A DNA stretch of 64,000 nt from Lachnospiraceae bacterium (GTDB lineage: Bacteria; Bacillota; Clostridia; Lachnospirales; Lachnospiraceae): contig JAFQZU010000038.1 in NCBI GenBank assembly GCA_017405805.1, forward strand, positions 1 to 64,000. Direction: 5' to 3'. The notes under the pieces were generated by a model, which searched no databases, was not told the DNA's origin, and saw only the letters and a program-made list of their open reading frames with translations. How positions within the stretch are numbered: position 1 is the stretch's first letter; every line of letters starts with the position of its first letter. The translations under genes and the position numbers were made by a program. This document shows, piece after piece, positions 45,599-64,000 of this stretch.

Positions 45599-46842
45599 CA
45601 CGGCAACTCCAAAAAGAGCTTCTCGTAAGCCTTTACGATCTTTTCCCAGCTGTAGGCACCGGCCATGCGGGCCTTGGCCATCCGGCCGTACTCCTCGATC
45701 TGTTCCTGCGTAAATCCGTCGGCCCGCTCGATCAGCCTCGCGAGGTCCCCGGGCTCCTTCGTCCAGTACAGCGCGGCGTCCTCAGCCACTTCCCTGTTGA
45801 AGCCCACATTCAGAAGAAGATTGAGCTTGGTGCTGCCCAGGCCCTCGAGGAGACTGGGATTGGTGCCGCCCACCTCGTGCCCGTGCAGGTATCCGTAAGC
45901 GTTCTCCCGGATCTTGCGGAGCAGTTCCTGGTCATAAACGGTCCCGACAAAACGGATGCGGTCATCCTTTTTGAAATGGAGCCGCTTCTCCAGGCGGGCC
46001 AGGAAGCGGTCGTCCGCCGTGGTGATAATGGCAAATTTCTTGCGGGTGGAGGACTTCATGAACTCCCGGATCATCACCTCGTAATTGTTCTCGGGAACGA
46101 AGCGTCCGACCACCAGATAATATTCGTTTTTCTCAAGACCCTTGTCGCGCAGCCACCCGGTGAACTCAGGGGCGTCGTCAGCCAGCTTCGAGGGAACGGT
46201 GTCCGTCCCGTACGCGATAAAACGGGTCTTCGGTGCGTACTGCCTGTATTCTTTCCGGATGTACTTGCGGATGTTGCGGCTGTCGCAGATCACGAGGTCC
46301 GCGCTGCGGACCATCATTTTCTCGGACTCTTTCCAGTAGGCCCGCACCGGTGCGCTCCACTTGGCCCTTCTCCACTCGTGTCCGTCGGGATTGAGGAGCA
46401 GAACGCCGCCCAGCTCGTGGATCTCCTTCTTGTAGCGCTCGATGAAAGGTCCGATCCGGCACGCCAGGACATAGAAGATCGGGTTCTTGATGGAAGGTCT
46501 CTTCCTGCAGTATTCGATGCAGTACTTCAGGGCTTCGAGATCATACAGCACCGCGCGCGCGGAGCCGATGTTGTGCGCCTTGATGCTGAAGCACTTGGCG
46601 CCGTTGTATTCGTAGCGGAAATTCTCGGCGCCCATGGCCGCGACGTGATAGCGGATCCTGTCGCTGATCCTGTAAGCCGTAAGCTTTTCCACAAAGGTCT
46701 CAAAACCGCCATAGGCAGCAGGGATACCCTTGCTGCCGATAATAAAGACCTGTTTCTTTTCCGTCTGATATCCAGGATGATCCTTGTGATCAGATAATCT
46801 GTGAACCTCTTTCCCGTTCACCCTCATCAAGGTTTCGTCCAT
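45598..46842 (-). CDS. DUF1972-type rhamnosyltransferase (Cps2T/RgpA-like)
   Basis: 414 residues. An N-terminal DUF1972 segment, VFIIGSKGIPAAYGGFETFVE, leads into a GT-B fold with PDGHEWRRAKW, YYLVVGRFVPENNYE and a glycan-donor motif HGHEVGGTNPSLLEGLG. The family includes beta-1,4-rhamnosyltransferases that start rhamnan or capsule chains. It comes directly after rmlD-rmlC, which fits use of dTDP-rhamnose. GAGGAA precedes ATG 46842. Confidence 0.87.
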   Translation of the reverse strand: MDETLMRVNGKEVHRLSDHKDHPGYQTEKKQVFIIGSKGIPAAYGGFETFVEKLTAYRISDRIRYHVAAMGAENFRYEYNGAKCFSIKAHNIGSARAVLYDLEALKYCIEYCRKRPSIKNPIFYVLACRIGPFIERYKKEIHELGGVLLLNPDGHEWRRAKWSAPVRAYWKESEKMMVRSADLVICDSRNIRKYIRKEYRQYAPKTRFIAYGTDTVPSKLADDAPEFTGWLRDKGLEKNEYYLVVGRFVPENNYEVMIREFMKSSTRKKFAIITTADDRFLARLEKRLHFKKDDRIRFVGTVYDQELLRKIRENAYGYLHGHEVGGTNPSLLEGLGSTKLNLLLNVGFNREVAEDAALYWTKEPGDLARLIERADGFTQEQIEEYGRMAKARMAGAYSWEKIVKAYEKLFLELP

Positions 46843-46878
46843 ATGCCGTTCCTCACTGCTGCTTAGTCCGGAGCCTGC

Positions 46879-47466
46879 TCACTCCATATTGGGCCATCTC
46901 TGATCCTTGTCGCTCAGGATCAGCGGTGTTCCGTCATCCAGATGGTAGTCTCCCGCCTCGGGCGTTCCGCGGTAGGTGCCGGAGATCCCCGGCCACTCGA
47001 TGCCGATCTTCGGGTCGTTCCAGGCAAGTCCCTCCTCGTCCCCGGGATGCCAGAAGTCCGTCACCTTGTAGCAGAACCTGGCCACGTCGCTCAGGACCAG
47101 GAACCCGTGGGCAAACCCCGCCGGAATGAAGAACTGACGGGCGTTCTCCCTTGTCAGCTCCACGCCGTGCCAGCGGCCGTAAGTGGCGCTGCCGGGCCTT
47201 AAGTCGACCGCCACGTCATAGACCCTTCCGTCTATGACCCGCACGATCTTGGCCTGCGGAAAATTCTTCTGGAAATGAAGGCCCCTGAGGACACCCTTTA
47301 CGGACATGCTCTCGTTGTCCTGCACGAAGACGGCGTCGATGCCGGCCTCCTGCAGATCCCTCTGGTTGTATGTCTCGGCAAAATATCCCCGCTTGTCCCT
47401 GTGTACGGAAGGCTCTATGATGCACAGCCCCTCGATGGGCGTCCTTGTAACTGAGATCTGTCCCAC
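46879..47466 (-). CDS. rmlC: dTDP-4-dehydrorhamnose 3,5-epimerase
   Basis: 195 residues, the usual size. VHRDKRGYFAETYNQRD, VLRGLHFQ with the catalytic His region, VYDVAVDLRPGSATYG and FIPAGFAHGFLVLSD are RmlC motifs. It acts after RmlB and before RmlD. It follows rmlD by 1 bp and precedes the DUF1972 transferase. Confidence 0.95.
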   Translation of the reverse strand: MGQISVTRTPIEGLCIIEPSVHRDKRGYFAETYNQRDLQEAGIDAVFVQDNESMSVKGVLRGLHFQKNFPQAKIVRVIDGRVYDVAVDLRPGSATYGRWHGVELTRENARQFFIPAGFAHGFLVLSDVARFCYKVTDFWHPGDEEGLAWNDPKIGIEWPGISGTYRGTPEAGDYHLDDGTPLILSDKDQRWPNME

Positions 47467-47467
47467 T

Positions 47468-48391
47468 TCAATCGCTCCCTGACTCCTCCGTCTGCCGCAG
47501 ATACCTTGCCAGTGCGTCCCGCCAGTCCGGAAGAGGTGTAAATCCGTTTTTCGTCAACTTGCTTTTATCCAGACGGCTGTTGAAAGGCCTCGCCGCCTTT
47601 GACAGCCCGTATTCTCTCGTCGTGACCGGGATGACCTTCACGTCCATCCCCGCCTGCCGGAAGATCTCCACGGCAAAATCATACCAGGAGATATATCCGC
47701 CCTCATTGGTCGCGTGGTAGTAACCGTAGCGGTCCGTTCCGGCCATGTCCGCCAGAAGCCGCGCCAGATCGTACGTATAGGTCGGCGTCCCGATCTGGTC
47801 ATTGACCACCCGCAGTGTGTCGTGCGTCTTTCCCAGCCTGCACATGGTGCGGACGAAGTTATTGCCGTTCTGCCCGAAGACCCAGGCGATGCGGACGATG
47901 AAGAGCTTCTTTGCCAGCTCTGCCGCCGCCAGCTCCCCCTCGAGCTTTGTCTGCCCGTAGACGTTGAGCGGGCTGTAAGCCCTGCTGTCCGGATCCCAGG
48001 GCTCCGTGCCCTGTCCGTCAAAAACGTAATCCGTGCTGATATAGATCATCTTCGCGTCCGCAAGGGCCGCTGCCTCTGCCATATTGCGCGTCCCGTCGCG
48101 GTTGATCCTGCGGACCTTATCTATATTCTCCGGCTCCTCGGCCGCGTCCACCGCCGTCCAGGCGGCGCAGTGAAAGATGACGTCCGGCCGGATCTCACCG
48201 ATCGTCCGGAGCACCTGCTCCCTGTCCGTGATATCCATCCTCACATAGGGCATGCGGCTTACGGGTGCATCGTCCGGGAAAGCGGGGTCCTCCCGCAGGT
48301 CCGAGCCGACCGCCTCCAGGCCTCTCCCGGCCAGTTCATTCATTATATCATGTCCCAGCTGACCGCAGACACCTGTGACAAACGCTTTCAT
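47468..48391 (-). CDS. rmlD: dTDP-4-dehydrorhamnose reductase
   Basis: 307 residues. Short-chain dehydrogenase-type start FVTGVCGQLGHD, STDYVFDG, and the YGQTKLEGE catalytic Tyr/Lys. It makes dTDP-L-rhamnose with NAD(P)H. First gene of the 39623-48391 operon. RmlB is not in the window; RmlA is on the opposite strand at 55726. Confidence 0.95.
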   Translation of the reverse strand: MKAFVTGVCGQLGHDIMNELAGRGLEAVGSDLREDPAFPDDAPVSRMPYVRMDITDREQVLRTIGEIRPDVIFHCAAWTAVDAAEEPENIDKVRRINRDGTRNMAEAAALADAKMIYISTDYVFDGQGTEPWDPDSRAYSPLNVYGQTKLEGELAAAELAKKLFIVRIAWVFGQNGNNFVRTMCRLGKTHDTLRVVNDQIGTPTYTYDLARLLADMAGTDRYGYYHATNEGGYISWYDFAVEIFRQAGMDVKVIPVTTREYGLSKAARPFNSRLDKSKLTKNGFTPLPDWRDALARYLRQTEESGSD

Positions 48392-48687: not shown

Positions 48688-50028
48688 ATGCCTTCAAGAG
48701 ATAGTCAAACCGCACGGACCGCTCTGCGCCTGATCCCGGCGGCGCTTGTTTTTGCGCTGCTCCTTGCCTTTGCCGTTCCTTCCGCGCTGCCGTCGGCCGC
48801 GCCGGCTGCCGCACAGGCCGCAACCGCCTCCGGGTGGAGGCTGAGCGGCGGAAAGTGGTACTACTTCAAGAGCGGCAGGAAGCAGACCGGCTGGCTCAAG
48901 GACGCCGGCAAGTGGTACTATCTGGACCCGAAGCAGAAGGGCGCCGCGGCCAAAGGACTGCGGGTCATCGGCGGGAAGGGATACCTTTTCGGGGCGGACT
49001 GCGCCATGAAGGTCAACGCCTGGATGAACACCAACAACCAGCGCTACCACAGCGACGAATGGGGCGTCGTGCAGACCGGCTGGCAGAAGATCTCCGGGAA
49101 ATGGTACTACTTCCGCCCCGCCTGGAACGGCGCCGCCGCCAAGGGCCTGTGCCGGATCGACGGGAAGGGGTACCTTTTCGGCGCGGATTACGCCATGAGG
49201 ACAAACGCCTGGATGAACACCAACGGACACCGCTACCACAGCGACGAGTGGGGCGTCGTGCAGACCGGCTGGCGAAAGATCGCCGACTGCCTGTACTATT
49301 TTGGCAAGTCGGGCGCCATGTACACGGGAAAGAAAACGATCGACGGAAAGGTCTTCCGGTTCCGCGCCGACGGCGTCTTTATGCGGGGCACCGGCAAGAC
49401 GGTAGTTCTCGATCCCGGCCACTCGGGCGTGACCGCCGAGGGGACCGTCCCGCTCGGCCCCGGCTCCTCCGAGAGGAAGGATGCGGACTCCCCCGGGACC
49501 AGGGGCGTCGAGACAGGCGTCTACGAGTATGAGCTCAATCTGACCATGGCCTTTAAAATAAAGAAAGAACTGGAATCCCGCGGTTATACGGTCTTTTTGA
49601 CCAGATCCGACAGCAGCGCCCCCCACGACTGCATCGAGCGCGCCGAGGTCGCCAACAGCAACGGCGCCGACATCTTCGTACGGCTCCACGCCAACAATAA
49701 ACGGGATCACTCCGCGACGGGCGCCATGACCATCTGCATCACGCCCGACAATCCCTTTGTGCCGCAGATGTACCAGCGCTCCCGGCTCCTGTCCGAGAAA
49801 CTCCTGAACTGCTACGTGCGGGCCACCGGCTGCGTATGGGAGGAGATCTGGGAGACGGATACCATGACCGGCAACAACTGGAGCAAGGTCCCCACGACCC
49901 TGATCGAATTCGGCTATATGTCCAACCCCGGCGAGGACAGGAAGATGCAGACGGCCTCCTACCAGGCAAAGATGACCCTCGGCACCGCCAACGGGATCGA
50001 CGCCTATTTTGAGGCCATCGGTAGGTAA
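48688..50028 (+). CDS. N-acetylmuramoyl-L-alanine amidase with N-terminal choline-binding-type repeats
   Basis: 446 residues. A signal peptide (about 1-44) is followed by cell-wall repeats (about 47-236), including two ~66-residue units with NGAAAKGL, AWMNTN and YHSDEWGVVQTGW. An Amidase_3 domain follows: VLDPGHSG (zinc His), ETGVYEYELNL (zinc Glu), RLHANN (zinc His) and IEFGYMSN (catalytic Glu). It cleaves the peptide stem from muramic acid. Lytic choline-binding proteins such as LytA are analogous in role, though with a different catalytic family and domain order. GAGGAG precedes ATG 48688. Confidence 0.93.
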   Translation: MPSRDSQTARTALRLIPAALVFALLLAFAVPSALPSAAPAAAQAATASGWRLSGGKWYYFKSGRKQTGWLKDAGKWYYLDPKQKGAAAKGLRVIGGKGYLFGADCAMKVNAWMNTNNQRYHSDEWGVVQTGWQKISGKWYYFRPAWNGAAAKGLCRIDGKGYLFGADYAMRTNAWMNTNGHRYHSDEWGVVQTGWRKIADCLYYFGKSGAMYTGKKTIDGKVFRFRADGVFMRGTGKTVVLDPGHSGVTAEGTVPLGPGSSERKDADSPGTRGVETGVYEYELNLTMAFKIKKELESRGYTVFLTRSDSSAPHDCIERAEVANSNGADIFVRLHANNKRDHSATGAMTICITPDNPFVPQMYQRSRLLSEKLLNCYVRATGCVWEEIWETDTMTGNNWSKVPTTLIEFGYMSNPGEDRKMQTASYQAKMTLGTANGIDAYFEAIGR

Positions 50029-50069
50029 TCTCCCCCGGCAGGGGGACCGGCTTCCCCGATCAGCAGTCA

Positions 50070-50099
50070 TTTACAAATATTCTCTGTCGGTAGTATAAT
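50070..50099 (+). promoter_or_regulatory. Promoter of the aminosugar operon
   Basis: TTTACA (50070-50075), 18-bp spacer, TATAAT (50094-50099), about 40 bp before the aminotransferase start. It should drive the eight plus-strand genes to 58370. Confidence 0.6.
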
Positions 50100-50140
50100 G
50101 AAAATGATATGCTATGGCTGACCAAGGAGTATTTTATTCT

Positions 50141-51280
50141 ATGTCCAATTTTCAGATTCCTTTTAATATACCGCCCTTTACCGGCTCCGAGCTCACCTAT
50201 GTCCAGCAGGCCGTAGACGCTCACAAGATCTGCGGCGACGGTCATTTCACGAAGATGTGCTCCGAGTGGATGCAGGAGCGTTTTAAGGCAAAGCGCGCCC
50301 TTTTGACGACCAGCGGCACGACCGCGCTGGAGATGGCAGCGCTTTTGTGCGGCCTGGAAAAGGGCGACGAGGTGATTCTGCCCAGTTTCACCTTCTCCAG
50401 CACCGCCAACGCGATCGTTCTGACAGGCGCCACGCCTGTCTTCGTCGATGTGCGTCCGGACACCATGAATATCGACGAGAAGCTGATCGAGGACGCCATC
50501 ACGGACCGCACCCGCGCCATCATGGTGGTCCATTACGCCGGCGTGGCCTGTGAGATGGACACCATCCTCGACATCGCGCGCAGGCACTCCCTCAAGGTCA
50601 TCGAGGACGCCGCGCAGGGCGTCATGGCCTTTTACAAGGGGCGCGCCCTGGGCACGATCGGCGATTACGGCTGCTACTCCTTCCACGAGACCAAGAACTA
50701 TTCCATGGGCGAGGGAGGCGCGCTGATCCTCCAGGACGACGCCGACATCGAGCCGGCGGAGATCCTGCGCGAGAAGGGCACCAACCGCGCGAAATTCTTC
50801 CGCGGCCAGGTCGACAAATACACCTGGGTCAACTACGGCAGCAGCTATCTTCCCAGCGACATGAACGCCGCCTACCTCTGGGCGCAGCTCCTTGAGGCGG
50901 ACGCGGTCAACGAGGACCGCCTCGCCACCTGGAACGCCTACCACGAGGCGTTTCTCCCCCTCCAGGAGGCCGGCCGGCTCGAGCTTCCCTTCATCCCCGA
51001 CGAGTGCACGCACAACGCGCATATGTACTACGTCAAGCTTCACGATCTCGAAGAGAGGACGCGCTTTATCAAACACCTCAAGGAACGCGGGGTGAGCAGC
51101 GTCTTCCATTACATTCCCCTCCACTCCTCTCCCGCCGGACGCCGCTTCGGCAGATTCCACGGGGAAGACGTCTACACGACGAGGGAGAGCGAGCGCCTTG
51201 TAAGGCTCCCCATGTACTACGGCCTTCGGCGCACAGACAGAGAGCACGTCATCCGCACCGTGCGGTCATTTTTTGACTGA
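50141..51280 (+). CDS. WecE/RffA-type dTDP-4-keto-6-deoxyhexose aminotransferase
   Basis: 379 residues from ATG 50141 (AAGGAG 11 nt before); a start 9 codons upstream is possible. PLP-dependent DegT/AryC1 family: Asp156 in VIEDAAQG and Lys185 in SFHETKNYSMGEGG; the FHETKN sequence is typical of WecE, which makes dTDP-4-amino-4,6-dideoxygalactose from dTDP-4-keto-6-deoxyglucose. RmlA, the first enzyme of that route, lies in the same operon. First gene of the operon. Confidence 0.88.
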   Translation: MSNFQIPFNIPPFTGSELTYVQQAVDAHKICGDGHFTKMCSEWMQERFKAKRALLTTSGTTALEMAALLCGLEKGDEVILPSFTFSSTANAIVLTGATPVFVDVRPDTMNIDEKLIEDAITDRTRAIMVVHYAGVACEMDTILDIARRHSLKVIEDAAQGVMAFYKGRALGTIGDYGCYSFHETKNYSMGEGGALILQDDADIEPAEILREKGTNRAKFFRGQVDKYTWVNYGSSYLPSDMNAAYLWAQLLEADAVNEDRLATWNAYHEAFLPLQEAGRLELPFIPDECTHNAHMYYVKLHDLEERTRFIKHLKERGVSSVFHYIPLHSSPAGRRFGRFHGEDVYTTRESERLVRLPMYYGLRRTDREHVIRTVRSFFD

Positions 51281-51325
51281 GCGGCGCGCACGGCACGCTT
51301 AGGAAAGGAAGGTAGAACCACCGTT

Positions 51326-52312
51326 TTGAAAATGCAAGCCGATACGGCCAGAAGTGCCGGCTCCCTGATCAGCTTTATTATCCCCTGCTACGCCAGCGAA
51401 GGCTCCGTCTCCCTGGTGATGGACGAGATCCGGCAGGTCGTGGCGCAGGGCGCCGGTTTTGATTATGAGATCATCGCAGTCAACGACTGCTCCCCTGACA
51501 ATGTGCTGTCCATCCTGCGGCGGGAAGCCGAAAAGGACCCGAAGGTCACCGTCATCGACCTGGCCCGGAACGGAGGCCGGCACAACGCCCTCCTGTGCGG
51601 CTGCCACTACGCCTCGGGCGACTACATCGTCTTTATCGACGACGACCAGCAGTGCCCAGCCGACAGGCTCTGGGACCTCATGGATCCGCTGATCCACGGC
51701 GACGCGGACGTGGCGATCGCAAAATATCCCAAAAAGACCCAGTCCCGCTTCAAAAATTTCGGCTCCGCCGTCAACGACACGGTGGCCACCTGGCTTCTGG
51801 GCAAGGATAAGAACCTGAAATTCTCCAACTTCTCCGTCATGAAGCGCTTTGTGAAGGACGAAGTGATCAAGTACACCAACCCCTATCCCTATCTCTCCGG
51901 CCTCATGCTGCGGGCTACCCGCAACGTCGTCAATGTGGAGATGGAGGAGCGGGAGCGCAAGATCGGCGTGGGACATTACAGCTTTGCCAAGTCCTTCGCC
52001 CTGTGGATGAACAGCTTTACCGCCTTCTCGGTGAAGCCCCTCCGCATCGCGACGACCTTCGGGATCGCCTTCTCGTTTTTTGGCGCGATCATGATCCTCT
52101 ACACGGTGATCCACAAGCTCATCAACCCCAACGTGGCGATCGGCTACAGTTCCCTGATGTCCATGCTCCTGTTCATCGGCGGCATGGTCATGTTCATGCT
52201 CGGCCTCATCGGGGAGTACGTGGGACGGATCTACATCTCCCTCAACAATTCCCCGCAGTTCGTAGTCAGACAGATCTACCGCGGCGGCAGGAAGGAGGGG
52301 CCGAATGAATAG
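51326..52312 (+). CDS. GtrB/ArnC-like polyprenyl-phosphate glycosyltransferase
   Basis: 328 residues from TTG 51326; ATG 51332 is equally possible. A DPM1-type GT-A domain (SFIIPCYASEGSVS, VNDCSPDNV, FIDDDQQCP) is followed by two C-terminal helices in the arrangement of GtrB and ArnC. These enzymes put one sugar on undecaprenyl phosphate at the inner face. The likely donor is the dTDP-amino sugar of the gene before it. It overlaps the ATP-grasp gene by 8 bp. Confidence 0.86.
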   Translation: MKMQADTARSAGSLISFIIPCYASEGSVSLVMDEIRQVVAQGAGFDYEIIAVNDCSPDNVLSILRREAEKDPKVTVIDLARNGGRHNALLCGCHYASGDYIVFIDDDQQCPADRLWDLMDPLIHGDADVAIAKYPKKTQSRFKNFGSAVNDTVATWLLGKDKNLKFSNFSVMKRFVKDEVIKYTNPYPYLSGLMLRATRNVVNVEMEERERKIGVGHYSFAKSFALWMNSFTAFSVKPLRIATTFGIAFSFFGAIMILYTVIHKLINPNVAIGYSSLMSMLLFIGGMVMFMLGLIGEYVGRIYISLNNSPQFVVRQIYRGGRKEGPNE

Positions 52313-53528
52313 GATCCTGATCATCGGCGCCGGCGATTTCCAGCTTCCGCTGGTGCAAAAGGCGTCAGAGCAGTATGAAGTTCTTCTGGCCGCCCCCGTC
52401 ATTTCCGATGCTTTTCTCCCTTATATCAGCGGGAAATTCATCACGGACGTGCGGGACAGGGAGGCTATTCTGGCATATGCGCGCACGATGGATATCTGCG
52501 GCGTCACCACCGACCAGACCGATATCGCCGTGCGCTCCGTCGCCTATGTGGCCGAGCAGCTGGGGCTGCCGGGCATAGGCTATGAGACCGGCTGCCTGTT
52601 TACCGACAAAAGTCTCATGCGGCAGAAAATGGCTGAACTTGGAATTCCGCTTCTGCCCAATAGGACCGTCTTCAGCCCGGAAGAGGCGCTCTCCTTCTAC
52701 GGGGAGATCGGCGGAGACGTCATCATCAAGCCCCTGGATACACAGGGGAGCCGCGGCGTGCAGGTCTGCCGAAGCGCTGCGGAGCTTCGGGACAAGTACG
52801 CGGAGGCTTCACGGTGGTCCTCAAACGGCGCCGTGATCGTGGAGCGCTTTGCGACCGGACGGGAGTTCGTCGTCGAGGGCCTCGCGGTGGACTATGAATT
52901 CCGCAATCTCTGCATCGGGGATACGCTCTATTTTGACCTTCCCGACGCCTTCGCGGCCAAGAGCCGGATCTTCCCGACCACGGCGGACGAGGCGCTTGCG
53001 CAGCGTGTGCTGGACCTCAACACCCGGATCTGTACCGGCTTCGGACTTCGCCAGGGCATCACCCACAGCGAATTTATTATGGACGGCGGCGAGATCTATC
53101 TGATCGAGACCGCGGCGAGAGGCGGCGGCGTGTTCATCTCCTCCGACCTGATCTCGCTGTCCACGGGACTGCAGACGGAGCAGTTCCTTCTGGACATCGC
53201 CACGGGCCGGCAGAAAGGCCTTCCAAAGATCCTCCCGCAGCAGTGTGTCTGCGGCTATATGGCCTTCTATATCCCGGTGGGCGAAGTCGTCCGCGTCAGC
53301 GGCGTGGAAGAGGTGCAGTCGCTTCCCTACGTCCATCGCAACCAGCTGGAAAAACTGCGCGCCGGCATCCGCAACGAGGAGGGCCACACGGACAAGACCT
53401 CCCGGATCGCCCTGATCGTCTCCGCACCGGACCGGGATACCCTGAACGAGAGGATGGCGCATATCCGCTCCGTCCTGCAGGCAGACGTAAAGACGCCTGA
53501 CGGCACTGCGTCTCTCATCTGGGAATGA
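52305..53528 (+). CDS. ATP-grasp ligase (CarB-like), unknown substrate
   Basis: 407 residues. N-terminal ILIIGAGDFQLPLV pre-ATP-grasp fold, then TDKSLMRQKMAELGIPLLP, IIKPLDTQGSRGV and the Mg-binding FIMDGGEIYLIETAARGGG. ATP-grasp enzymes join a carboxylate to an amine or thiol through an acyl-phosphate. In this operon the obvious amine is the 4-amino group of the sugar, so it may acylate it (inference). It overlaps the preceding gene by 8 bp. Not purine or carbamoyl-phosphate synthesis: no such neighbours. Confidence 0.82.
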   Translation: MNRILIIGAGDFQLPLVQKASEQYEVLLAAPVISDAFLPYISGKFITDVRDREAILAYARTMDICGVTTDQTDIAVRSVAYVAEQLGLPGIGYETGCLFTDKSLMRQKMAELGIPLLPNRTVFSPEEALSFYGEIGGDVIIKPLDTQGSRGVQVCRSAAELRDKYAEASRWSSNGAVIVERFATGREFVVEGLAVDYEFRNLCIGDTLYFDLPDAFAAKSRIFPTTADEALAQRVLDLNTRICTGFGLRQGITHSEFIMDGGEIYLIETAARGGGVFISSDLISLSTGLQTEQFLLDIATGRQKGLPKILPQQCVCGYMAFYIPVGEVVRVSGVEEVQSLPYVHRNQLEKLRAGIRNEEGHTDKTSRIALIVSAPDRDTLNERMAHIRSVLQADVKTPDGTASLIWE

Positions 53529-53582
53529 GCGCTCAACTTTGTTTATTCTTTATTTTTTTAACTAAAAGGGAGTTTTACGAAA

Positions 53583-54974
53583 ATGGCAAATTATGAACTG
53601 GATCACAAGTTGGAACATCCCAACACGCTCAAGGCTTACTTCAGTCTCATCCGTGAGCCCGTCAACAGCGGAAACTACAAGAAATACCGCGAGATGCAGG
53701 ATAAGCGCATCCACGAGCTGATGACGGCCGCCTATGAGATTCCCTTCTACAGGGAGCGCTTCGAGCGGACCGGCACCACGCCCGACGACTATCACTGCGC
53801 GGAGGACCTCTACAAGTTCCCCCTGCTCACCAAGGACGAGCTGCGCGAGTGGATGGACGGCGAAGCCGAGGCGGATCCGGACAAATTCAAGCACTGGCAC
53901 GTATCTCCCACTTCCGGCTCCACAGGAAGGCCGCTCCGCTGCCTGGTCTCTCCCAAAGAGAGCGCCTGGTCCACGGCCAACTGGCTGCGCGTCATGAGAA
54001 TGGCAGGCTTCGATCCTTTTCGCGGCAAAACAATGAGCCGCCCCAATTCCCTGCACGGCCCGGTCAAGGAGAGCGATTCCCCCATCCAGAAGCTGGGCAT
54101 CCTGCGCCGCCGCTACATGTCCGACACGATCAAGCAGCGCGTGGACACGCAGACGCTCGTGGACGAGATCAACGCTTACAAGCCCGATTATCTCTACAAC
54201 CACAAGAACCTTCTCATGCGCATTGCGCTTTACGTCAAGGAGACCGGTGTCTATCTGTGGAAGCCGAGCTTCTATACGCCTTTTGGCGAGATGCTGGACA
54301 ACCCTTCCAGACAGCTCCTGACAGACGTGTTCGGTCCCGGCCTGGTGGACGCCTACGGCATGGGCGAGACCGGTTCCTGCGTGACCCGGATCCCCGGCAA
54401 AAAATACTATCAGGTAAACAGCGACCTCTTCGTGGTCAACATCTACGACGATGACCTCAAGGGCCCCGCCATGAAGGGCATGGCTGTCATCACGCCCCTC
54501 TACAAGACCGAGATGCCCCTGATCAACTACACTTCCTTCGACAGGATGGACACCTACTTCAAAAAGGGCCTCCGCTTCGTGCGCGGCATACAGGGCCGCA
54601 TGAACGACGTCATCCACCACCGCGACGGGAGCGTGACGGAGTGGGGCAATATCTCCGGCATCGTGAACTATATCCCCGAGATCGTCCAGTACCGGATCGT
54701 CCAGGAGGACTACGACAACCTGACCATGATGATGGTCCGCAATCCCGACGTTCCCGCTGAGCGCCAGGACGAGATCGTCAAGGACCTGGATGCCAAGCTG
54801 GTGGCCATGTTCAAGGATCCCCACTTCCATATCACCTACGAGTGGTATGACGAACTTCCCAGCGATCCCAACGGCAAACTCCGCGTCATCGTCAGCAAAG
54901 TGCAGCCGGGCGCGCTCGGCGAGCCCGAAAACGCCGGGCGGGACTTCGGCAGCGAAAAGATTGAAGAGGCGTAA
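53583..54974 (+). CDS. PaaK/CapK-like adenylate-forming enzyme
   Basis: 463 residues. SPTSGSTGRPLRC is the phosphate-binding loop of phenylacetate-CoA ligase-like enzymes; DAYGMGETGS follows and IQGRMNDVI lies toward the C-terminus. CapK-like members often sit in capsule loci with unknown roles. Here it may activate the acyl group used on the amino sugar together with the ATP-grasp protein (inference). GGGAG precedes ATG 53583. Confidence 0.85.
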   Translation: MANYELDHKLEHPNTLKAYFSLIREPVNSGNYKKYREMQDKRIHELMTAAYEIPFYRERFERTGTTPDDYHCAEDLYKFPLLTKDELREWMDGEAEADPDKFKHWHVSPTSGSTGRPLRCLVSPKESAWSTANWLRVMRMAGFDPFRGKTMSRPNSLHGPVKESDSPIQKLGILRRRYMSDTIKQRVDTQTLVDEINAYKPDYLYNHKNLLMRIALYVKETGVYLWKPSFYTPFGEMLDNPSRQLLTDVFGPGLVDAYGMGETGSCVTRIPGKKYYQVNSDLFVVNIYDDDLKGPAMKGMAVITPLYKTEMPLINYTSFDRMDTYFKKGLRFVRGIQGRMNDVIHHRDGSVTEWGNISGIVNYIPEIVQYRIVQEDYDNLTMMMVRNPDVPAERQDEIVKDLDAKLVAMFKDPHFHITYEWYDELPSDPNGKLRVIVSKVQPGALGEPENAGRDFGSEKIEEA

Positions 54975-54976
54975 TC

Positions 54977-55336
54977 GTGATCGACCGTTTTTTAAGCAAA
55001 CGAAGAAATATCATCCTGCTCGCCCTGGTCGCGGTGTTCATGGAAAGTCTTACTTCTCCGTGCCTGAAGCTGGGCGGACAGTACCCCTTTATGTCGCCGG
55101 GCTACATCATGTGGTTCTGCATCGCCGTGCTGATCCTGGGCTTTTACGCCGTATGCTGGCAGCTCATCCTGGAAAAGATCCCGCTGACCACCGCCTACCT
55201 TCGCCGGGGCCTCAGCTACATACTGGTCTTTTTATGGGCACACGTGATCTTTCACGAGACGATCACCTGGAAACAGATCCTCGGGATCGCCGTGATCACT
55301 TTGGGAATGGTGGTGAGTATAAGCGATGAACACTGA
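54977..55336 (+). CDS. EmrE/ArnE-like four-helix membrane protein (subunit 1)
   Basis: 119 residues, GTG start 54977 with GAGG upstream, 2 bp after the adenylating-enzyme gene. Four hydrophobic helices of SMR/EamA half-size, with LTTAYLRRGLSYILVFLWAHVIF and ETITWKQILGIAVITLG as in ArnE/ArnF. It pairs with the next gene, which it overlaps by 11 bp. Such pairs flip aminoarabinose-lipid in Gram-negatives; here they may flip the lipid-linked amino sugar. Confidence 0.78.
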   Translation: MIDRFLSKRRNIILLALVAVFMESLTSPCLKLGGQYPFMSPGYIMWFCIAVLILGFYAVCWQLILEKIPLTTAYLRRGLSYILVFLWAHVIFHETITWKQILGIAVITLGMVVSISDEH

Positions 55337-55691
55337 TTTTCTGACGCCGCAGGTATGCTACGCCGCGGCCATTCTCGGTGCTTTTGTCACCGCCCTGAGC
55401 CAGATCCTGCTGAAGCGGCAGGCAAATATCACCGAAGCCGGAAAAAAGGGATTTCTGCAGAAATTTCTGAATATCCGCGTTTTTCTTTCCTACGGGATGC
55501 TGTTCATGACGCTGGTGATCAACCAGATCGCGCTGATCCATGTGCCGATCTCCGTCATGCCCTGCATCACCGCGACCAGCTTTATCTGGGTCTTTGTACT
55601 GGGGATCATCATCCTTGGGGAGAAGGTTTCCCGCAGAAGGGTCCTGGGCGTCGCCATTATCATCGCCGGCGTGATCATCTCCCGGCTGTAA
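55326..55691 (+). CDS. EmrE/ArnF-like four-helix membrane protein (subunit 2)
   Basis: 121 residues, four hydrophobic helices. [16 protein letters not shown] (a conserved acidic residue of SMR drug pumps is absent), [21 protein letters not shown] and [14 protein letters not shown]-like end. The start lies inside the previous gene, as expected for a coupled heterodimer. Probable flippase half. Confidence 0.78.
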
Positions 55692-55725
55692 AACCGTCAC
55701 ACCATCAGAAGGAGTATTCGTATTT

Positions 55726-56640
55726 ATGAAAGGTATCATTCTCGCCGGCGGTTCCGGCACCCGACTGTATCCGCTGACCCGCGTCACGTCCAAGCAGCTT
55801 CTGCCCGTGTACGACAAGCCGATGATCTACTATCCGCTTTCCACGCTCATGCTGGCGGGGATCCAGGACATCCTGATCATCTCCACTCCGGAGGACACCG
55901 GCCGCTTCCGCGACCTTCTCGGCGACGGCTCCAGCTTCGGCATCCGCCTCTCCTATGCGGTGCAGGAAGTCCCCGCGGGACTTGCGCAGGCATTTCTCAT
56001 CGGTGAGGACTTCATCGGCGACGACCCCTGCGCGCTGATCCTGGGCGACAATATTTTTTACGGCGGCTACTTCCGCCCCGCTCTGCGCGCGGCCGGTGAC
56101 AACGCCAAGGAGGGGCTTGCCACAGTCTTTGGCTACTATGTTGATAAGCCCGAGCAGTTTGGCGTCGTGGAATTCTCCAAGGACGGGAAAGTCCTCTCCG
56201 TGGAGGAAAAGCCCGCCAACCCCAAGTCCAACTATGCCGTGACCGGTCTGTATTTCTACAGCAATGACGTCGTAAAACTCGCCAAAGAGGTCCGTCCCTC
56301 CAACCGCGGAGAACTGGAGATCACCGATCTCAACCGCATGTACCTGGAGCAGGGCCGTCTCAAGGTCCAGGTCCTTGGCCGCGGCTTCGCATGGCTCGAT
56401 ACCGGTACGGTGGACTCCCTCATGGACGCCGCTCAGTTTGTCTCCACCATCCAGGCCAGACAGGGCGTGATCATCTCGGCACCGGAGGAGATCGCCTACC
56501 ACGCGAAGTGGATCGACAAAGAGACGCTCCTCAAGTCCGCCCAGCTCTATGGAAAATCCTCCTACGGCAAGCATCTGCTCAATGTCGCGCAGGACAAGCT
56601 CCTGTATGTGGAGATCACTTCGAACGAGGATCTCGACTGA
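55726..56640 (+). CDS. rmlA: Glucose-1-phosphate thymidylyltransferase
   Basis: 304 residues. [18 protein letters not shown] (1-18), [44 protein letters not shown] and GFAWLDTGT are RmlA signatures. It makes dTDP-glucose, feeding both the rhamnose branch (rmlC, rmlD on the minus strand) and the amino sugar branch in this operon. AGAAGGAG precedes ATG 55726. RmlB is missing from the window. Confidence 0.96.
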
Positions 56641-56669
56641 GACCCTCTGCCGCAATAACAGGTTAGAAC

Positions 56670-58370
56670 ATGATTGCAATCCTCAAAGATTTTTATGAAC
56701 GGATCGCCTCCAGAAAGGCCTTCTGGATCCCGCTCCTTCTCCTGTCCTTCGGCGCATACGGGTTTTCCATGCTCAACCGGACCCTCTGCGCGGACGATCT
56801 GGCCACGGATCTCTATGTGAACAGTACCATCTGGCTGGCGGAACTGCGCTGGGGCGCCGTTCTGTGGAAGCGTCTCCTCTCTTTCGGAGACGCTGTTCCG
56901 TTTTTGGACAAATATCTGTCGCTGCTGTTTCTGACGGCGGCAGCCACCGTCCTTGCCTGCATCTTTTACACGCTGCGGGGCCGAAAAGGGAACGCCGCGA
57001 CGTATGCCGCGGCAGCATGTGTCTTTGCCACCTTCCCGATCCTGCAGGAGATCTGGGAGTTCACCTGCGGCGGCACGCTGATCGTACCGGGCGACTTCCT
57101 CCTCACCTTCCTGGTGCTTCTTTTCCTTCTCACCCATAACCGCCTTACGCCGGCCGGCGTACTGGTCCCTTCACTGGTCATGTCACTGGTGTGCTCCAGC
57201 GCCGAATCGCTGGCCCCCTGCTACGTAGCAGCGGTTATGATGATCCTCTACTACAAGTACTGTGTCCGCCGGGTGCAAGATGAGACCGCTCCGGATCCCG
57301 CCGATCCCGCGGATCCCGCCGACCCCGCAAATCCCGCCGATCCCGCCGACCCCGCCGATCCCGCCGACCCCGTCCGGTGCGCCCCGGGAGGGCACTTTGC
57401 CTGGATCGTCGACGGTCTGCACTACGCGCTGATTCTGGTGCTGGCCATGATCATCCGGGTCATCATCGGATATGCCATTATGAAGATAATGGGGCTCACC
57501 TTTACCCACACCGGCGACACCACCATCATGTGGCCGCTTACCGGAGAGCAGCTGCGCCTCTTGATCGGCGAATTCCTGACCAACTACGCAGCGGCGGCGC
57601 TGGTCTATCTGCCGATCGCGTCCTTTGTTCTTTTTGCGCTGCTCTTTATCCTCTACAGCATCTGTATGTGCGCCCGCGGCAAAAGTCCTCTCCCCATATT
57701 GATCGCCCTTCTGATCTTCATCTCCCTCTTCTTCCTGATGCTGATCCAGGGGCAGGTGATGTGGTACAGGACCGCCATCACGCTCATGCTCTTTGCCTCC
57801 TTTACGGCCTTCCTGATCATGGAATATCTGGAAACCAGACCCGCGGCCGTCTATGCGGCTGCATCAGTCCTGCTCCTCTTCCTCTGCTGGAGGCAGGCCG
57901 CCTACACGCACATGCTGCTGGCGCTCGACAACCAGCGCTCGGAAAACGAAGCGGCCATGGTGTATCAGATAGGACGTGACATCGTCTCCCAATACGATGC
58001 AAAACCGGTCGTCTTCGTGGGGGACCACAGCATGAGCCACGATCTGTGGCTGCGGACGTCGGTGTCCGGCGACTCGCTCCGCGAGCGCCTCTTCTACCGG
58101 ATCCGCCGGAAGCTGACCGGACAGGATTCCACCTTCTATTACGTGCAGTCCAACGTCACGTCGACCATCGACTGGTATCAGCGTGAGTTCGACGGGAAAC
58201 TGATGGATGCCTACTTTGCTTATTACGGATTTGATCTGGATGTGCTGGAAGACCTGTCGGAGCAGGAAGTGGAGTATTATACGCAGAAGGCGCGGGAGAA
58301 GAATATGAGGCCCTATCAGACTGAGGATATGGGGGAGTATATACTGGTCTGCTTAGGAAAACTGGAATAG
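56670..58370 (+). CDS. GtrII-like membrane glycosyltransferase with DPA repeats
   Basis: 566 residues, about 11 hydrophobic helices. CADDLATDLYVNSTIWLAELRWG near the N-terminus matches the GtrII glucosyltransferase pattern with its acidic pair in the first extracytoplasmic loop. Around residues 210-235 is a (DPA)-type tandem of about nine units. GtrII enzymes take a sugar from polyprenyl phosphate and add it to a glycan outside the membrane. Last gene of the operon, which makes it the likely final transferase. Confidence 0.78.
   Translation: MIAILKDFYERIASRKAFWIPLLLLSFGAYGFSMLNRTLCADDLATDLYVNSTIWLAELRWGAVLWKRLLSFGDAVPFLDKYLSLLFLTAAATVLACIFYTLRGRKGNAATYAAAACVFATFPILQEIWEFTCGGTLIVPGDFLLTFLVLLFLLTHNRLTPAGVLVPSLVMSLVCSSAESLAPCYVAAVMMILYYKYCVRRVQDETAPDPADPADPADPANPADPADPADPADPVRCAPGGHFAWIVDGLHYALILVLAMIIRVIIGYAIMKIMGLTFTHTGDTTIMWPLTGEQLRLLIGEFLTNYAAAALVYLPIASFVLFALLFILYSICMCARGKSPLPILIALLIFISLFFLMLIQGQVMWYRTAITLMLFASFTAFLIMEYLETRPAAVYAAASVLLLFLCWRQAAYTHMLLALDNQRSENEAAMVYQIGRDIVSQYDAKPVVFVGDHSMSHDLWLRTSVSGDSLRERLFYRIRRKLTGQDSTFYYVQSNVTSTIDWYQREFDGKLMDAYFAYYGFDLDVLEDLSEQEVEYYTQKAREKNMRPYQTEDMGEYILVCLGKLE
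57295..57373. repeat. 9-bp in-frame tandem repeat (DPA units)
   Basis: About nine copies of GATCCCGCC or close variants (GACCCCGCC, GATCCCGCG, AATCCCGCC) encode Asp-Pro-Ala. Copy number could change without a frameshift. Confidence 0.85.
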
Positions 58371-58444
58371 AGAGAAAGCCACCGCAGGGTCTTTTCACGC
58401 CCATAGGATGGGCGGAGTACGGAAGTCCTTATGGGGGCGGCCAT

Positions 58445-58760
58445 TTGAGTGGGACATTCCCGACTGGGCAGCAGGTTCCTTCATTTGAGTGGGACAGTTT
58501 TCTGCGGTAAGCTTGGATTTACCGACCATATGGGCAGATTTCCTATCTTGAGTGGTGAAATTTTAAGAGCTGTCCCGACCAAATAAGTGAACAATTCGGT
58601 TGAGTGGTGGATTTAGCCTGAATGTCCGGACCAAATTGAAGAATTTGAAATGTGAGTGGTATGGATTTAAAAAAAGTCCCGACCGAAGCAAGAAATTTCA
58701 TTTTTGAGTGGAAAAACCTTCAAAAAAGCCCCACTAAAAAATCAAACAATTCATATTTAA
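58445..58760. repeat. Degenerate repeat array, 52-bp period
   Basis: TTGAGTGG or a one-base variant occurs at 58445, 58485, 58548, 58600, 58652 and 58704; the last four are exactly 52 bp apart. GTCCCGACC or a variant occurs at 58572, 58624, 58676 and 58728, also exactly 52 bp apart. Bases between are mostly A/T-rich and not conserved. Some units can fold, for example CAATTCGGTT with GACCAAATTG. No ORF crosses the array convincingly. Confidence 0.85.
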
Positions 58761-58787
58761 TGGAACCAAGAGCGAGGCTGCAGCAAA

Positions 58788-58864
58788 GAGTCGTATATAA
58801 CAACCCGCAGGACCTTTGAGCGAGCATAGGCGAGCGTGCCCAAGGGTGTTATATACGACTCTCC
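58788..58864. repeat. Stem-loop element with GAGTCGTATATAAC ends (copy 1)
   Basis: GAGTCGTATATAAC (58788-58801) is inverted at 58849-58862. The interior contains TTTGAGCGAGCATAGGCGAG. It lies 4 nt after the stop codon of the oxidoreductase gene on the minus strand. A longer relative is at 60082-60183. Confidence 0.85.
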
Positions 58865-58868
58865 CCTA

Positions 58869-60005
58869 TTATAAAGTGATCCAGACATTCCCCTTCTTCT
58901 GCGACTCCACACACGCATGCACAAACCGCATCCCGTCGACGCCGTCATGTATGTCGGGGAAGGTATACCCATCGGCCTCCCGGCCTTCTTTTTTTGCAAG
59001 AAGGACCTGTGCGTAGGAGCGGTAAATATTTCCGAAGGCCTCATAGAAGCCCTCATGATGCCCCGCCGAGACGCGATTCAGACGATTGCTCTGCGGGGAC
59101 ATGTATTCTTTGCCCGCTTCCAGAAGCTGCGTGGGGCCGCCTTTTTTCGTATAGCGCAGAACGTCCGGCTGCGTGTGGTCCCATTCCAGCGATCCGTCGG
59201 TCCCGATGACATAGATGGCGGGACTGCAGATCTTTCCAATGGCGATCTGGGAAGCCCACAGGACGCCGGTCCTTCCCTCGCCAAGATCCATAAAGACCGA
59301 AGTGTTGGTCTCCAGCGGCAGATAGGAAGGATACGTATCCAGCATGGCCAGGACCCTGTGGATATGAAGGCCGGTGAACTGGACCAGGAGCTGCTCGGCG
59401 TGCGTGCCCAGATCCCCCGTGCAGAGCGCTTCGCCCACCATCTCGGGATGGAAGCGCCAGGGCAGTTCATCCCCCGGCTCCGGGCTGACGGACTCGATGA
59501 CCCAGTCTTCGGGGTGCTGCACCCGGACATGAACGATGTCGCCGATCGCACCGCTGCGGATCATTTCCCGTGCCTGTCGGATCACGGGGTACCCTGTGTA
59601 CCCGTAGGTCACGCCAAACAAAATGTCATTTTCCTCTACAATCTTCTCCAGTTCGACCGCCTGCTCCAGCGTCAGGGTCAGCGGCTTGTCACAGACGACG
59701 TGGATCCCCCGCTCCATAAAGTAACGGGCGATCTCATAATGGCTGACGTTGGGCGTCGTGATCGAGACAAAATCAATGCCGTCTTCGCGCTCCGCCTCTT
59801 TGTCCGCCATCTCTTTGTAGTCGCGATAGATACGGGAAGCATCCAGTCCCCAGGCGTCAGCCGTGCGAAGGCTGGTCTCGTAGCTGCGGGAAAAGCAGCC
59901 GGCGCAAAGCTCTGTCAGATCGTCCATCTGGGCGGCGTGCCTGTGTACGTCGCCTATATAGGAACCGAGCCCTCCGCCGACCATACCATATTTCAGTCTT
60001 TCCAT
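58869..60005 (-). CDS. Gfo/Idh/MocA-family NAD(P)-dependent oxidoreductase
   Basis: 378 residues. N-terminal Rossmann fold with MVGGGLGSYIG, SITTPNVSHYEIA, and the catalytic-region Lys in HVVCDKPLT; the C-terminal half is the family alpha/beta domain. These enzymes oxidise or reduce sugars, inositols or nucleotide sugars. AAAGGAGACAGT precedes ATG 60005. It stands between two copies of the same stem-loop element. Substrate unknown; location suggests a sugar. Confidence 0.88.
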   Translation of the reverse strand: MERLKYGMVGGGLGSYIGDVHRHAAQMDDLTELCAGCFSRSYETSLRTADAWGLDASRIYRDYKEMADKEAEREDGIDFVSITTPNVSHYEIARYFMERGIHVVCDKPLTLTLEQAVELEKIVEENDILFGVTYGYTGYPVIRQAREMIRSGAIGDIVHVRVQHPEDWVIESVSPEPGDELPWRFHPEMVGEALCTGDLGTHAEQLLVQFTGLHIHRVLAMLDTYPSYLPLETNTSVFMDLGEGRTGVLWASQIAIGKICSPAIYVIGTDGSLEWDHTQPDVLRYTKKGGPTQLLEAGKEYMSPQSNRLNRVSAGHHEGFYEAFGNIYRSYAQVLLAKKEGREADGYTFPDIHDGVDGMRFVHACVESQKKGNVWITL

Positions 60006-60188: not shown

Positions 60189-61247
60189 TTACGGAACAAG
60201 TTTTCTGATCCCCGGTATCTTCTTCAGCACCGCCACCACGAAAAGTGTAATGACATAGGTGCCGAGCGCCCCGAACAGGCGATACTGCCAGCTTGCCCCT
60301 GACGGATCCGTGTGCCTGCAGATGATGGCCAGGATCTCCCTGTGCAGCAGGAACACGCCAAAACTGTACCCCGCCAGGATCCCGGTATTTTTGCGAAAGC
60401 GCGCAGACCAGCGGTCATCAGAAAAGACCTGCTTCACAAAGAGGAAGACGGCGGCCGCCGACAGCACTGCGTGAAACTGCGCGTATCCCGAAAAAAGATA
60501 ATCGATCTCGCCGGCCGCGAAGCTCGCTTTCCAGGTATACAGAAAGCGCAGCAGAACGCTCAGGACGGCCGCCGCATAGACCATATACCGCCTCTGCGCA
60601 GACACCTCCTGCGTAGAGAGCAGGTAGCCGAGAATGACATGGATGAGGTAGCCGTTAAACAGGATCGAGAGGTTGCTGTTGTAAGTGACGCCGACAGCCT
60701 GAAAGGCCACGGGCAGCACGGACTGCGTGACGAACATCACGATCACGGCATACCAGAGCGTACTCCTGTAACGTGGCGCCGCGAGCGGCGTCAGGACGGG
60801 AAGGGTAAGGTATACGCCGATGATCGTAAAAAGGAAGTAGTAGATGGGCGCCGCCTGACTGGAAAAGAAGGCGTTCAAAAAGAAAGCGGCAGGCGGTCCC
60901 GATACGGCCAGTTCCCCCTTCGCGAACTTAAAGACGATAAAAAAGACCGACCAGAACAGGAGCGGGATGACGACTTTGGAGACCCTCTTGCGGAAGAATT
61001 CGGGCGTGTCATATTTTTTGCCGTAATCGAACAGGGTCGCGCCGGTGCACATGACAAAAACCGGTACGGCCCAGTAGAGCGCGCACTGCGCGAAACAGCT
61101 CGTGACCCAGGAGCGGGTCATCGTGAAGCTGTGAAAATTGCCGGTGGAATGCAGGAAGATCACCGCGACGGCAGACATGATATTCAGGACGTCCAGATAG
61201 AGGATCCTCCCCTTCCCCTGTGCGGCGGTTTGGTCAAGATTCTTCAT
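60189..61247 (-). CDS. Membrane acyltransferase, acyltransferase-3 family
   Basis: 352 residues from ATG 61247 (GAGGGG upstream; an earlier start lies deeper in the licD gene). About ten helices, starting with ILYLDVLNIMSAVAVIFLHS, where the conserved His lies, and FRKRVSKVVIPLLFWS. The family O-acetylates or acylates surface sugars. It overlaps the second licD by 14 bp. Confidence 0.85.
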   Translation of the reverse strand: MKNLDQTAAQGKGRILYLDVLNIMSAVAVIFLHSTGNFHSFTMTRSWVTSCFAQCALYWAVPVFVMCTGATLFDYGKKYDTPEFFRKRVSKVVIPLLFWSVFFIVFKFAKGELAVSGPPAAFFLNAFFSSQAAPIYYFLFTIIGVYLTLPVLTPLAAPRYRSTLWYAVIVMFVTQSVLPVAFQAVGVTYNSNLSILFNGYLIHVILGYLLSTQEVSAQRRYMVYAAAVLSVLLRFLYTWKASFAAGEIDYLFSGYAQFHAVLSAAAVFLFVKQVFSDDRWSARFRKNTGILAGYSFGVFLLHREILAIICRHTDPSGASWQYRLFGALGTYVITLFVVAVLKKIPGIRKLVP

Positions 61248-62163
61248 CCCAGGTCCCCTCTTCCATTCTGCGCAGATATTCCGTGTAAGGGACATCGGGA
61301 TCATAGATCATTCCCGTGTGCCAGGAAGGTGCCTGCGCGGGCGTCATGTAGCCGTCCCCGTAGTAATTGCGCAGGATGCGGTCGTAGCCGATGGGCGCCG
61401 GCAGCTTCATGAACTCAAAGGGCAGCTCCACGGTATCCGCATAGGCCCAGGCGGGCATGCGGGGGCACTCCTCCAGTTTTTCATAGAAGGTCAGAAGGCC
61501 CATATCGCTCCCCTTTTTCCCCTGTCTCTTCGCGAAGGACTCATAGAGTTTATACCACCTGCGGAAGCCGATCAGATTCATTCCCCTGACATAGGCCCGC
61601 TTCATCCCCTTTCGCAGGGGATTCTCGGATTCCTTGTGAAAATAGACCGGGATCAGCATCCTGCGGACCACGTCCAGCCCCTTGTTGCGCGCCTTGTTGA
61701 GGACTTCTCTCTTCGAAAACCAGTCCAGCGGGAATATGTCGATAAAGATCCCCTGATTGAAGGACACCGCCGTCTTTTCCACCGGGCTGATCCCCGTGGT
61801 ATTGGAATTGCGCAGCTGCGCGTGCCCGCGCAGGTAGTCCTTGTCCGAGTAGGCGGACTGCAGAAAATAGGGCTCCTTGAATTCCTCGGCGCCGATCTGC
61901 AGCAGCTTGTCGTAATCCTCCCGCTTCATGACGACGTCGATATCGTCGTCCCAGGGAATGAAGCCCTTCTCCCGCACGGCGCCCAGGAGCGTGCCGCCGT
62001 CCATAAAGTAGGTCAGTCCGTGTCTGCGGCAGACATCGTCCAGCACGGCGATCAGGTCCAGTTCCACCGCCCAGATGCGCTTCATTTTGGCGGAGATCTC
62101 GTATCCGTTTCTCACTTCCGGCGCAAGAAAGCCTTCCGGCAGCTGTATCGTAAGCTCAGTCAT
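61234..62163 (-). CDS. LicD-family phosphotransferase (second copy)
   Basis: 309 residues. FMDGGTLLGAVREKGFIPWD and then DDDIDVV form the LicD signature. Weak overall similarity to the copy at 44729, so it is not a recent duplicate. It is followed directly by the acyltransferase and preceded by the flippase gene, so the second phospho-substituent may be added to the repeat unit exported by that flippase. Confidence 0.92.
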   Translation of the reverse strand: MTELTIQLPEGFLAPEVRNGYEISAKMKRIWAVELDLIAVLDDVCRRHGLTYFMDGGTLLGAVREKGFIPWDDDIDVVMKREDYDKLLQIGAEEFKEPYFLQSAYSDKDYLRGHAQLRNSNTTGISPVEKTAVSFNQGIFIDIFPLDWFSKREVLNKARNKGLDVVRRMLIPVYFHKESENPLRKGMKRAYVRGMNLIGFRRWYKLYESFAKRQGKKGSDMGLLTFYEKLEECPRMPAWAYADTVELPFEFMKLPAPIGYDRILRNYYGDGYMTPAQAPSWHTGMIYDPDVPYTEYLRRMEEGTWDEES

Positions 62164-62176
62164 ACCCTGTTTACTC

Positions 62177-63634: not shown

Positions 63635-64000
63635 GTTGTGCTCCTTAAGATCCTCTCTTTTTCCAGCATAGGAACCACCGCGAGCAGCAGCGGATTGTAT
63701 GCCAGATCGATCCATATATTATTCATAAATGTAAACAGCAGCAGTACACTGACCCATACATACAGCATCCCGTCCCCGGTCCGCCCGGCGGCAGTATACA
63801 GATATGTGTACAGCGCCACGATCAGCAGGGTGAACAGGATCCCGAAGGCAAAGACAGAAAAACCTATCCCCGAATCAATGTAAAAATAGTCCCTCGCGAG
63901 AGCGCCCCCGTTGATCACGAAGGTCTGGCCCACCATCTCGATCCGCCTGCCCAGGACAGGCAGCGAATAGCGGAGGAAGGCCTCGTGCAGCATGACGATG
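63631..64000 (-). CDS. Probable Wzy-type polymerase, C-terminal end (partial)
   Basis: At least 123 residues visible, open at the window edge. LPVLGRRIEMVG precedes a short loop (INGGALARDYFYIDSG) and two or three helices, then WIDLAYNPLLLAVVPML. Membrane topology and position before Wzx suggest the polymerase of the same unit. Family assignment is by context. Confidence 0.55.
   Translation of the reverse strand, partial: IVMLHEAFLRYSLPVLGRRIEMVGQTFVINGGALARDYFYIDSGIGFSVFAFGILFTLLIVALYTYLYTAAGRTGDGMLYVWVSVLLLFTFMNNIWIDLAYNPLLLAVVPMLEKERILRSTT

Follow-up and report, generated by a model that had tools for sequence, protein, structure and literature searches.

The ArnB-ArnC-ArnA-ArnEF pathway of lipid A modification places UDP-Ara4N on undecaprenyl phosphate (Und-P), with N-formylation and then deformylation of the sugar, and uses ArnT for its transfer. 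The GtrA-GtrB-GtrII system of O-antigen glucosylation handles a neutral glucose, with GtrA as flippase and no modification of the sugar. Gram-negative O-antigens contain Qui4N or Fuc4N bearing an (acyl)amino acid on the nitrogen, as part of their repeats. Among Gram-positive bacteria, multi-component transmembrane glycosylation is represented by CsbB-GtcA-YfhO, and PMC8035078 describes YfhO as a GT-C enzyme required, with CsbB and GtcA, for the GlcNAc on lipoteichoic acid of Bacillus subtilis and Staphylococcus aureus. Here we describe eight consecutive plus-strand genes of a Lachnospiraceae bacterium, at positions 50141..58370 of the 64,000-nucleotide stretch analysed (hereafter the window; contig JAFQZU010000038.1), which would form, with reasonable probability, a multi-component surface-glycosylation system carrying a cytosolic N-acylation module.

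The locus resembles CsbB-GtcA-YfhO in combining a GT-A type enzyme that probably loads Und-P, small membrane proteins that may act as flippase and a GT-C transferase, and YfhO itself is present in the Clostridiales versions of the cassette. It differs in offering an SMR/EamA pair, not GtrA, as the flippase candidate, and in holding genes for a dTDP-4-amino-4,6-dideoxy sugar and two ATP-dependent ligases in the operon. With the Arn pathway it would share an amino sugar on Und-P, cytosolic modification of the nitrogen, an SMR-size pair and transfer outside, but the Arn pathway has no ligases and the proteins studied here score below the ArnC, ArnE and ArnF cut-offs. A transferase of the GtrII family (PF14264) is common to the locus and to O-antigen glucosylation, and one of the ligases shares the fold and the E-x-A-A-R motif of BacD which, with BL00235 and RizA, is an L-amino acid ligase; here such an enzyme lies within a sugar cassette. 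The proposed product, a 4-amino-6-deoxy sugar with an (acyl)amino acid on its nitrogen, would be of the kind seen in the O-antigens, but as a single Und-P-linked side sugar moved by a GT-C enzyme and not as an O-antigen repeat. The open-access literature yielded no published description of this gene set, or of two acid-joining enzymes in such a setting; the first-pass annotation had named it a candidate undescribed operon.

In the order of steps that we favour, dTDP-Fuc4N would be loaded onto Und-P, its nitrogen would be aminoacylated and capped with an acyl group, the SMR1-SMR2 pair would flip the product, and the sugar would reach a surface polymer. Decoration of the surface with a modified Fuc4N is the likely outcome. 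If the whole scheme is true, many gut and rumen Clostridia display on a surface sugar a peptide-like group, which is not predicted by any published system that we found. The ATP-grasp and PaaK-like genes that lie in polysaccharide loci would then acquire a testable job, and SMR-type proteins would seem able to flip a bulky, modified lipid-linked sugar.

Genes for sugar synthesis and for proposed loading and export

Family assignments were tested against Pfam and NCBIfam cut-offs, and scores are quoted below as bits/cut-off. The first gene (50141..51280) encodes WecE, the dTDP-4-amino-4,6-dideoxygalactose transaminase, which scores well over its curated family cut-off (TIGR02379, 623.9/434.85) and matches the structures 4piw and 6blg of the PDB with E values of 5e-161 or better. 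RmlA, the glucose-1-phosphate thymidylyltransferase (55726..56640), is likewise over its cut-off (TIGR01207, 470.4/360.65), and the RmlB of the genome lies on the same contig 2.5 kb beyond the window end (C16:66462-67424; 495/365.1). As RmlA, RmlB and WecE are found in one region, the dTDP-Fuc4N route is gathered there, and the three enzymes would make dTDP-4-amino-4,6-dideoxy-galactose (dTDP-Fuc4N), in agreement with the amino sugar that had been proposed from WecE and RmlA.

The second gene (51326..52312) encodes a GT2 family transferase of PgfS/ArnC-like type (PF00535, 91.5/23.3) with two C-terminal hydrophobic segments by hydropathy. It probably transfers the sugar to Und-P, an acceptor assigned by kinship, and loading could equally follow acylation. 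SMR1 (54977..55336, three hydrophobic segments) and SMR2 (55326..55691, four segments, overlapping SMR1) are small membrane proteins of the SMR/EamA kind and of ArnE/F size, with ArnE and ArnF as their closest curated families; SMR1 is over the EamA cut-off (PF00892, 33.7/28.2) and SMR2 under it (23.3/28.2), and no GtrA match was listed for the pair in the Pfam and NCBIfam scan. Together they would flip the finished lipid-linked sugar.

The last gene (56670..58370) encodes a polytopic glycosyltransferase of GT-C type with eight hydrophobic segments, which belongs to the GtrII family (PF14264, 46.4/30) and has no NCBIfam match. GtrII follows the cassette on its 3′ side in the window and in five related loci (L090-L093, L095), while YfhO precedes it on the 5′ side in six complete cassettes and in L078, L080, L081 and L082, recognized by PF09586 in L032, L080 and L081 and by similarity in the others. 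Transfer of the sugar outside, by GtrII here and by YfhO in relatives, has good support, since one GT-C family replaces the other between lineages; the polymer that would receive the modified sugar may be supplied by the neighbouring polysaccharide genes. The contigs of L085-L087 and L094 continue beyond SMR2, and no GtrII gene was detected on them. The GtrII-like gene contains, in frame, a low-complexity run encoding DPADPADPANP (window 57280-57375).

The intergenic gaps are, in operon order, +45, -8, +54, +2, -11, +34 and +29 bases. The eight tightly spaced or overlapping genes of the first-pass annotation, with its sugar-loading enzyme, pair of ArnE/F-size proteins and GtrII-like outer transferase, are all found, loading being backed by kinship. 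As for its single promoter, a plus-strand site, TTTACA-18-TATAAT (50070..50099), matches the consensus at 11/12 positions, with 41 bases between its end and the start of WecE. It is the sole promoter-like match in 49900-58700, but its count is not significant because shuffles of the region average 3.6 such sites. The quality and position of the match are suggestive of a promoter. No Rfam family reached threshold in 49900-59000.

Two ligases between the proposed loading and export genes

The ATP-grasp protein (52305..53528) exceeds the cut-offs of two broad families in Pfam (CPSase_L_D2, 39.8/19.8; ATP-grasp_4, 34.8/27) and none in NCBIfam, the BacD equivalog model giving 53.3/850. It shares with BacD the fold, the ATP-grasp catalytic residues and the E-x-A-A-R motif, at 19-21% identity over the model, and to judge from these features it is of the same type as the L-amino acid ligases BacD and BL00235, which refines the ATP-grasp ligase noted before. 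Neither it nor the PaaK-like protein is predicted to have membrane segments.

Relatives of the ATP-grasp protein at 27-30% identity occur in five plasmid records (Enterococcus hirae, Bacteroides finegoldii, Parabacteroides distasonis, Aureibacter tunicatorum and Acetoanaerobium noterae), and all five lie at most 2 kb from a sugar aminotransferase gene. The Acetoanaerobium noterae relative, unannotated there, carries the L-amino acid ligase C-terminal domain and has, by similarity search, WecE-like (41%) and GT2-like (33%) genes immediately on its 5′ side. The one from Aureibacter tunicatorum sits in a pseudaminic acid cluster, adjoining pseC and pseF. These neighbours are an independent hint at the target of the enzyme, which would convert the carboxylate of an amino acid to an acyl phosphate and join it to the free 4-amino group; that it acts on the amine of the sugar is a claim to which we give slightly more credit than doubt. 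The order of genes on the Aureibacter tunicatorum plasmid (L127, 3094-9791) is pseB, pseC, pseF, ATP-grasp, a hypothetical gene, an acyltransferase gene and pseI, and the ATP-grasp gene there possibly provides an alternative N-acylation of the pseudaminic acid precursor.

The PaaK-like adenylating enzyme (53583..54974) passes no Pfam or NCBIfam cut-off. Its score against phenylacetate-CoA ligase (TIGR02155, 51.1/646.3), with no genes of phenylacetate degradation in the operon, led us to reject a role in that pathway. Neither ligase scores above the cut-off of any family whose known substrate is unrelated; such a match is what the first-pass annotation had named as fatal to its proposal. Among 22 aligned PaaK-like sequences T110-S-G-S113, Y258-G259, E262, D320, R339 and K432 are invariant; we take these to be the P-loop, the Y-G-x-x-E motif, the hinge D/R and the C-terminal lysine, and on these motif residues the protein fits the PaaK branch of the ANL superfamily. 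Plasmid relatives are more distant (four records, 22-26%); of the three examined, which leave aside the second Methanosarcina record, two adjoin glycosyltransferase genes and the third lies within a gene annotated as a glycosyltransferase. The enzyme would convert a second acid to its adenylate, and so cap the amino acid or supply the acid. The two-part, acyl-aminoacyl substituent that would result is put forward tentatively.

Two candidate substrates were considered. A hydroxy acid was suggested by a ketopantoate-reductase-like gene adjoining PaaK, which is limited to L079 and L082, the counterpart in L083 being an epimerase. Lactate was suggested by an L-lactate permease gene near a PaaK relative in L045 and L115; this proximity says little about the PaaK enzyme, because the relative is a fusion to TetR that lacks the C-terminal lid. 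Such fusions of a TetR-like N-terminal domain with a PaaK core were found in L044 (9344-11020), L045 (9344-11020) and L115 (6847-8445), in each case with the core stopping before the lid and its catalytic lysine; L046 begins in the same way and is truncated where its contig ends. The TetR part matches Pfam weakly (18.8 and 19.1 bits, cut-off 24) and aligns at 26-50% (E 4e-11 or better) with the free TetR proteins, two of which were tested and exceed that cut-off (34.3 and 34.8 bits). A free TetR gene lies divergently beside PaaK in ten loci. The fusion looks like a regulator that would sense the PaaK substrate or its adenylate.

The most far-reaching scheme, a Gram-positive surface-decoration system, would have the two ATP-dependent ligases build a small acyl-aminoacyl chain on the nitrogen of lipid-linked Fuc4N, a dedicated SMR heterodimer export it, GtrII and YfhO be swapped by lineage, and TetR control acid activation, in some species fused to a catalytically disarmed, acid-sensing PaaK core. 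It is doubtful that all of these parts hold together.

Recurrence of the cassette and alternative readings

A contig scan with the PaaK-like protein, which picks up close relatives only, gave 38 loci, whose genes were called by a codon-usage script and not taken from annotation. The complete order WecE-GT2-ATP-grasp-PaaK-SMR1-SMR2 recurs in six of them (L032, L034, L036, L037, L039, L040), so that the arrangement is not due to chance, and two more (L033, L038) are cut by contig ends. In two loci titled Eggerthellaceae some of the parts are present but differently arranged: L030 has an ATP-grasp gene at 58% and a GT2 at 68%, L035 distant ATP-grasp relatives only (26 and 28%). Three loci (L044-L046) are the TetR-PaaK fusions. 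L080, a diverged version, has the order RmlB-RmlA-SMR1-SMR2-PaaK-WecE-GT2-ATP-grasp with YfhO upstream, its RmlB scoring 487.1/365.1. Among named relatives, those with the closest PaaK carry the title Lachnospiraceae. The genes thus co-occur elsewhere, in complete and in rearranged loci, as the first-pass annotation needed them to.

Co-occurrence of the ligases was counted in a genus of 61 genomes, chosen because it includes genomes with a stand-alone PaaK gene. Both ligases are present in 25, PaaK (at least 70% identity) alone in 0, ATP-grasp alone in 1 and neither in 35 (Fisher p = 3e-16, shared ancestry ignored). The sole ATP-grasp-only genome is G460, where the gene is split across two contigs. 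WecE is found in 57/61 and a GT2 relative in 59/61.

Several observations weigh against an N-acylated, lipid-linked Fuc4N. The neglect of shared ancestry in this statistic is one, and when seven genomes with only a diverged PaaK (46-58%, fusions included) are counted the classes become 25, 7, 1 and 28 (p = 1.3e-9). In the same genus, WecE and a GT2 of another kind (41-49%) occur with neither ligase, at the thresholds used, in 24/61 genomes; the ligase module is therefore optional and the sugar genes do not need it. ATP-grasp and PaaK are on different contigs in 25/25 of the draft genomes that have both, and the stand-alone PaaK of this one genus could serve another pathway. Three genomes (G236, G220, G468) have GtrII-WecE-GT2-SMR1-SMR2 with no ligase alongside, and two (G436, G465) have WecE-GT2 with neither ligases nor SMR pair alongside. 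Across 397 genomes of the window's family the close ATP-grasp form is present only in the window's own genome, and the sole other listed genome of its genus is without it. The GT2 protein is below the PgfS (136.5/500) and ArnC (114.1/529) cut-offs, as are SMR1 for ArnF (41.7/99) and ArnE (36.3/92) and SMR2 for ArnE (34.7/92). No N-acyltransferase that could use a PaaK-made acyl-CoA was detected by Pfam or NCBIfam among the eight genes. Finally, RmlA and RmlB may also supply rhamnose, since RmlC and RmlD (46879-48391, minus strand; 234.2/155.75 and 284.8/224.05) pass their cut-offs nearby, as RmlB does.

The 25 stand-alone PaaK loci (70-80% identity) have no other cassette gene in the contig DNA examined, some of the contigs being short, except that four loci (L010, L015, L022, L028) show GT2 matches of 26-33%. 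The ATP-grasp gene is present in all 25 genomes (best E 7e-117 or better) and adjoins WecE and GT2 by coordinates in 24; in G220 it lies ~29 kb away on the same contig. Within the family the cassette is seldom found: PaaK is present at E 1e-20 in 8/200 family genomes, the other seven at 34-46% identity, and ATP-grasp at E 1e-60 in 4/397, the other three at 31-33%.

A single ligase might acylate the sugar, PaaK performing the N-acylation (or supplying an acyl-CoA) on an acid made by the ATP-grasp enzyme, or the reverse. We consider this rather unlikely: in L040 two different ATP-grasp genes adjoin PaaK in one cassette, a better fit to stepwise building. Nor do we expect that the ligases leave the sugar alone and jointly produce a small molecule, either an acyl-amino acid or something like a dipeptide, the sugar genes being just co-operonic, although the BacD-type ligases to which the ATP-grasp fold matches make free dipeptides and PaaK is off the WecE-GT2 contig in the 25 genomes above. 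Both ligases are off it in G438 and G467 (ATP-grasp 28-30%, PaaK 48%), where WecE-GT2-RmlA-GtrII is at one place and ATP-grasp-PaaK-SMR1-SMR2 on another contig; the separate ligase operon nevertheless includes the SMR pair, as expected for a pair that would have to fit the modified sugar (though in G236, G220 and G468 the pair keeps to the sugar genes), and the distant plasmid ATP-grasp relatives keep to sugar aminotransferases in every record.

It is very improbable that the module acylates a wall polymer or lipid, in the manner of Dlt for teichoic acid, and not the flipped sugar. An activating enzyme, DltA, likewise begins D-alanylation of teichoic acid (PMC8035078), and LicD and choline-binding proteins are encoded nearby, but no carrier protein or MBOAT-type transferase was detected by Pfam or NCBIfam among the eight genes, and neither ligase has a predicted membrane segment. 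We also reject a plain Fuc4NAc pathway like that of enterobacterial common antigen, to which the WecE score would point, as the same scan found no acetyltransferase among the eight genes and single-sugar Und-P chemistry with GtrII or YfhO is unlike the assembly of that antigen.

Neighbouring genes and minor observations

The polysaccharide genes flanking the operon (window 43994-48391 and 60189-63715, minus strand) encode two LicD proteins, an IspD-like protein, RmlC, RmlD, a DUF1972 glycosyltransferase, an acyltransferase 3 protein and a polysaccharide flippase. A phosphocholine-type polymer would be in keeping with the nearby genes for LicD, an IspD-like protein, rhamnose and choline-binding repeats, but nothing links such a polymer to the operon. 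Proteins with choline-binding repeats (amidase, L,D-transpeptidase or metallo-beta-lactamase-like) are encoded near the cassette at window 48688-50028 and in L086, L091, L093, L105, L106, L107, L109 and L117. Such repeats were found in 8/8 tested relatives, which were picked for likeness to the choline-binding proteins of the window, and their position near cassettes may reflect the mere commonness of these proteins.

In seven loci of the 61-genome genus (L111-L114, L120-L122) WecE is followed by a protein of 580-645 residues and then by a GT2 of a different kind (45-50%), a further WecE cluster with no ligases; a protein of 150-216 residues stands between the large protein and the GT2 in 6/7. 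In L111 these two proteins have 592 and 150 residues, and neither matches a family in Pfam.

Directly 3′ of the operon, at window 58445-58740, lies a degenerate repeat of four copies with 52-base spacing, TTGAGTGG ... GTCCCGACC. Its strict pattern is found in the genome at four sites, distributed over four contigs, against a backwards control of 0.

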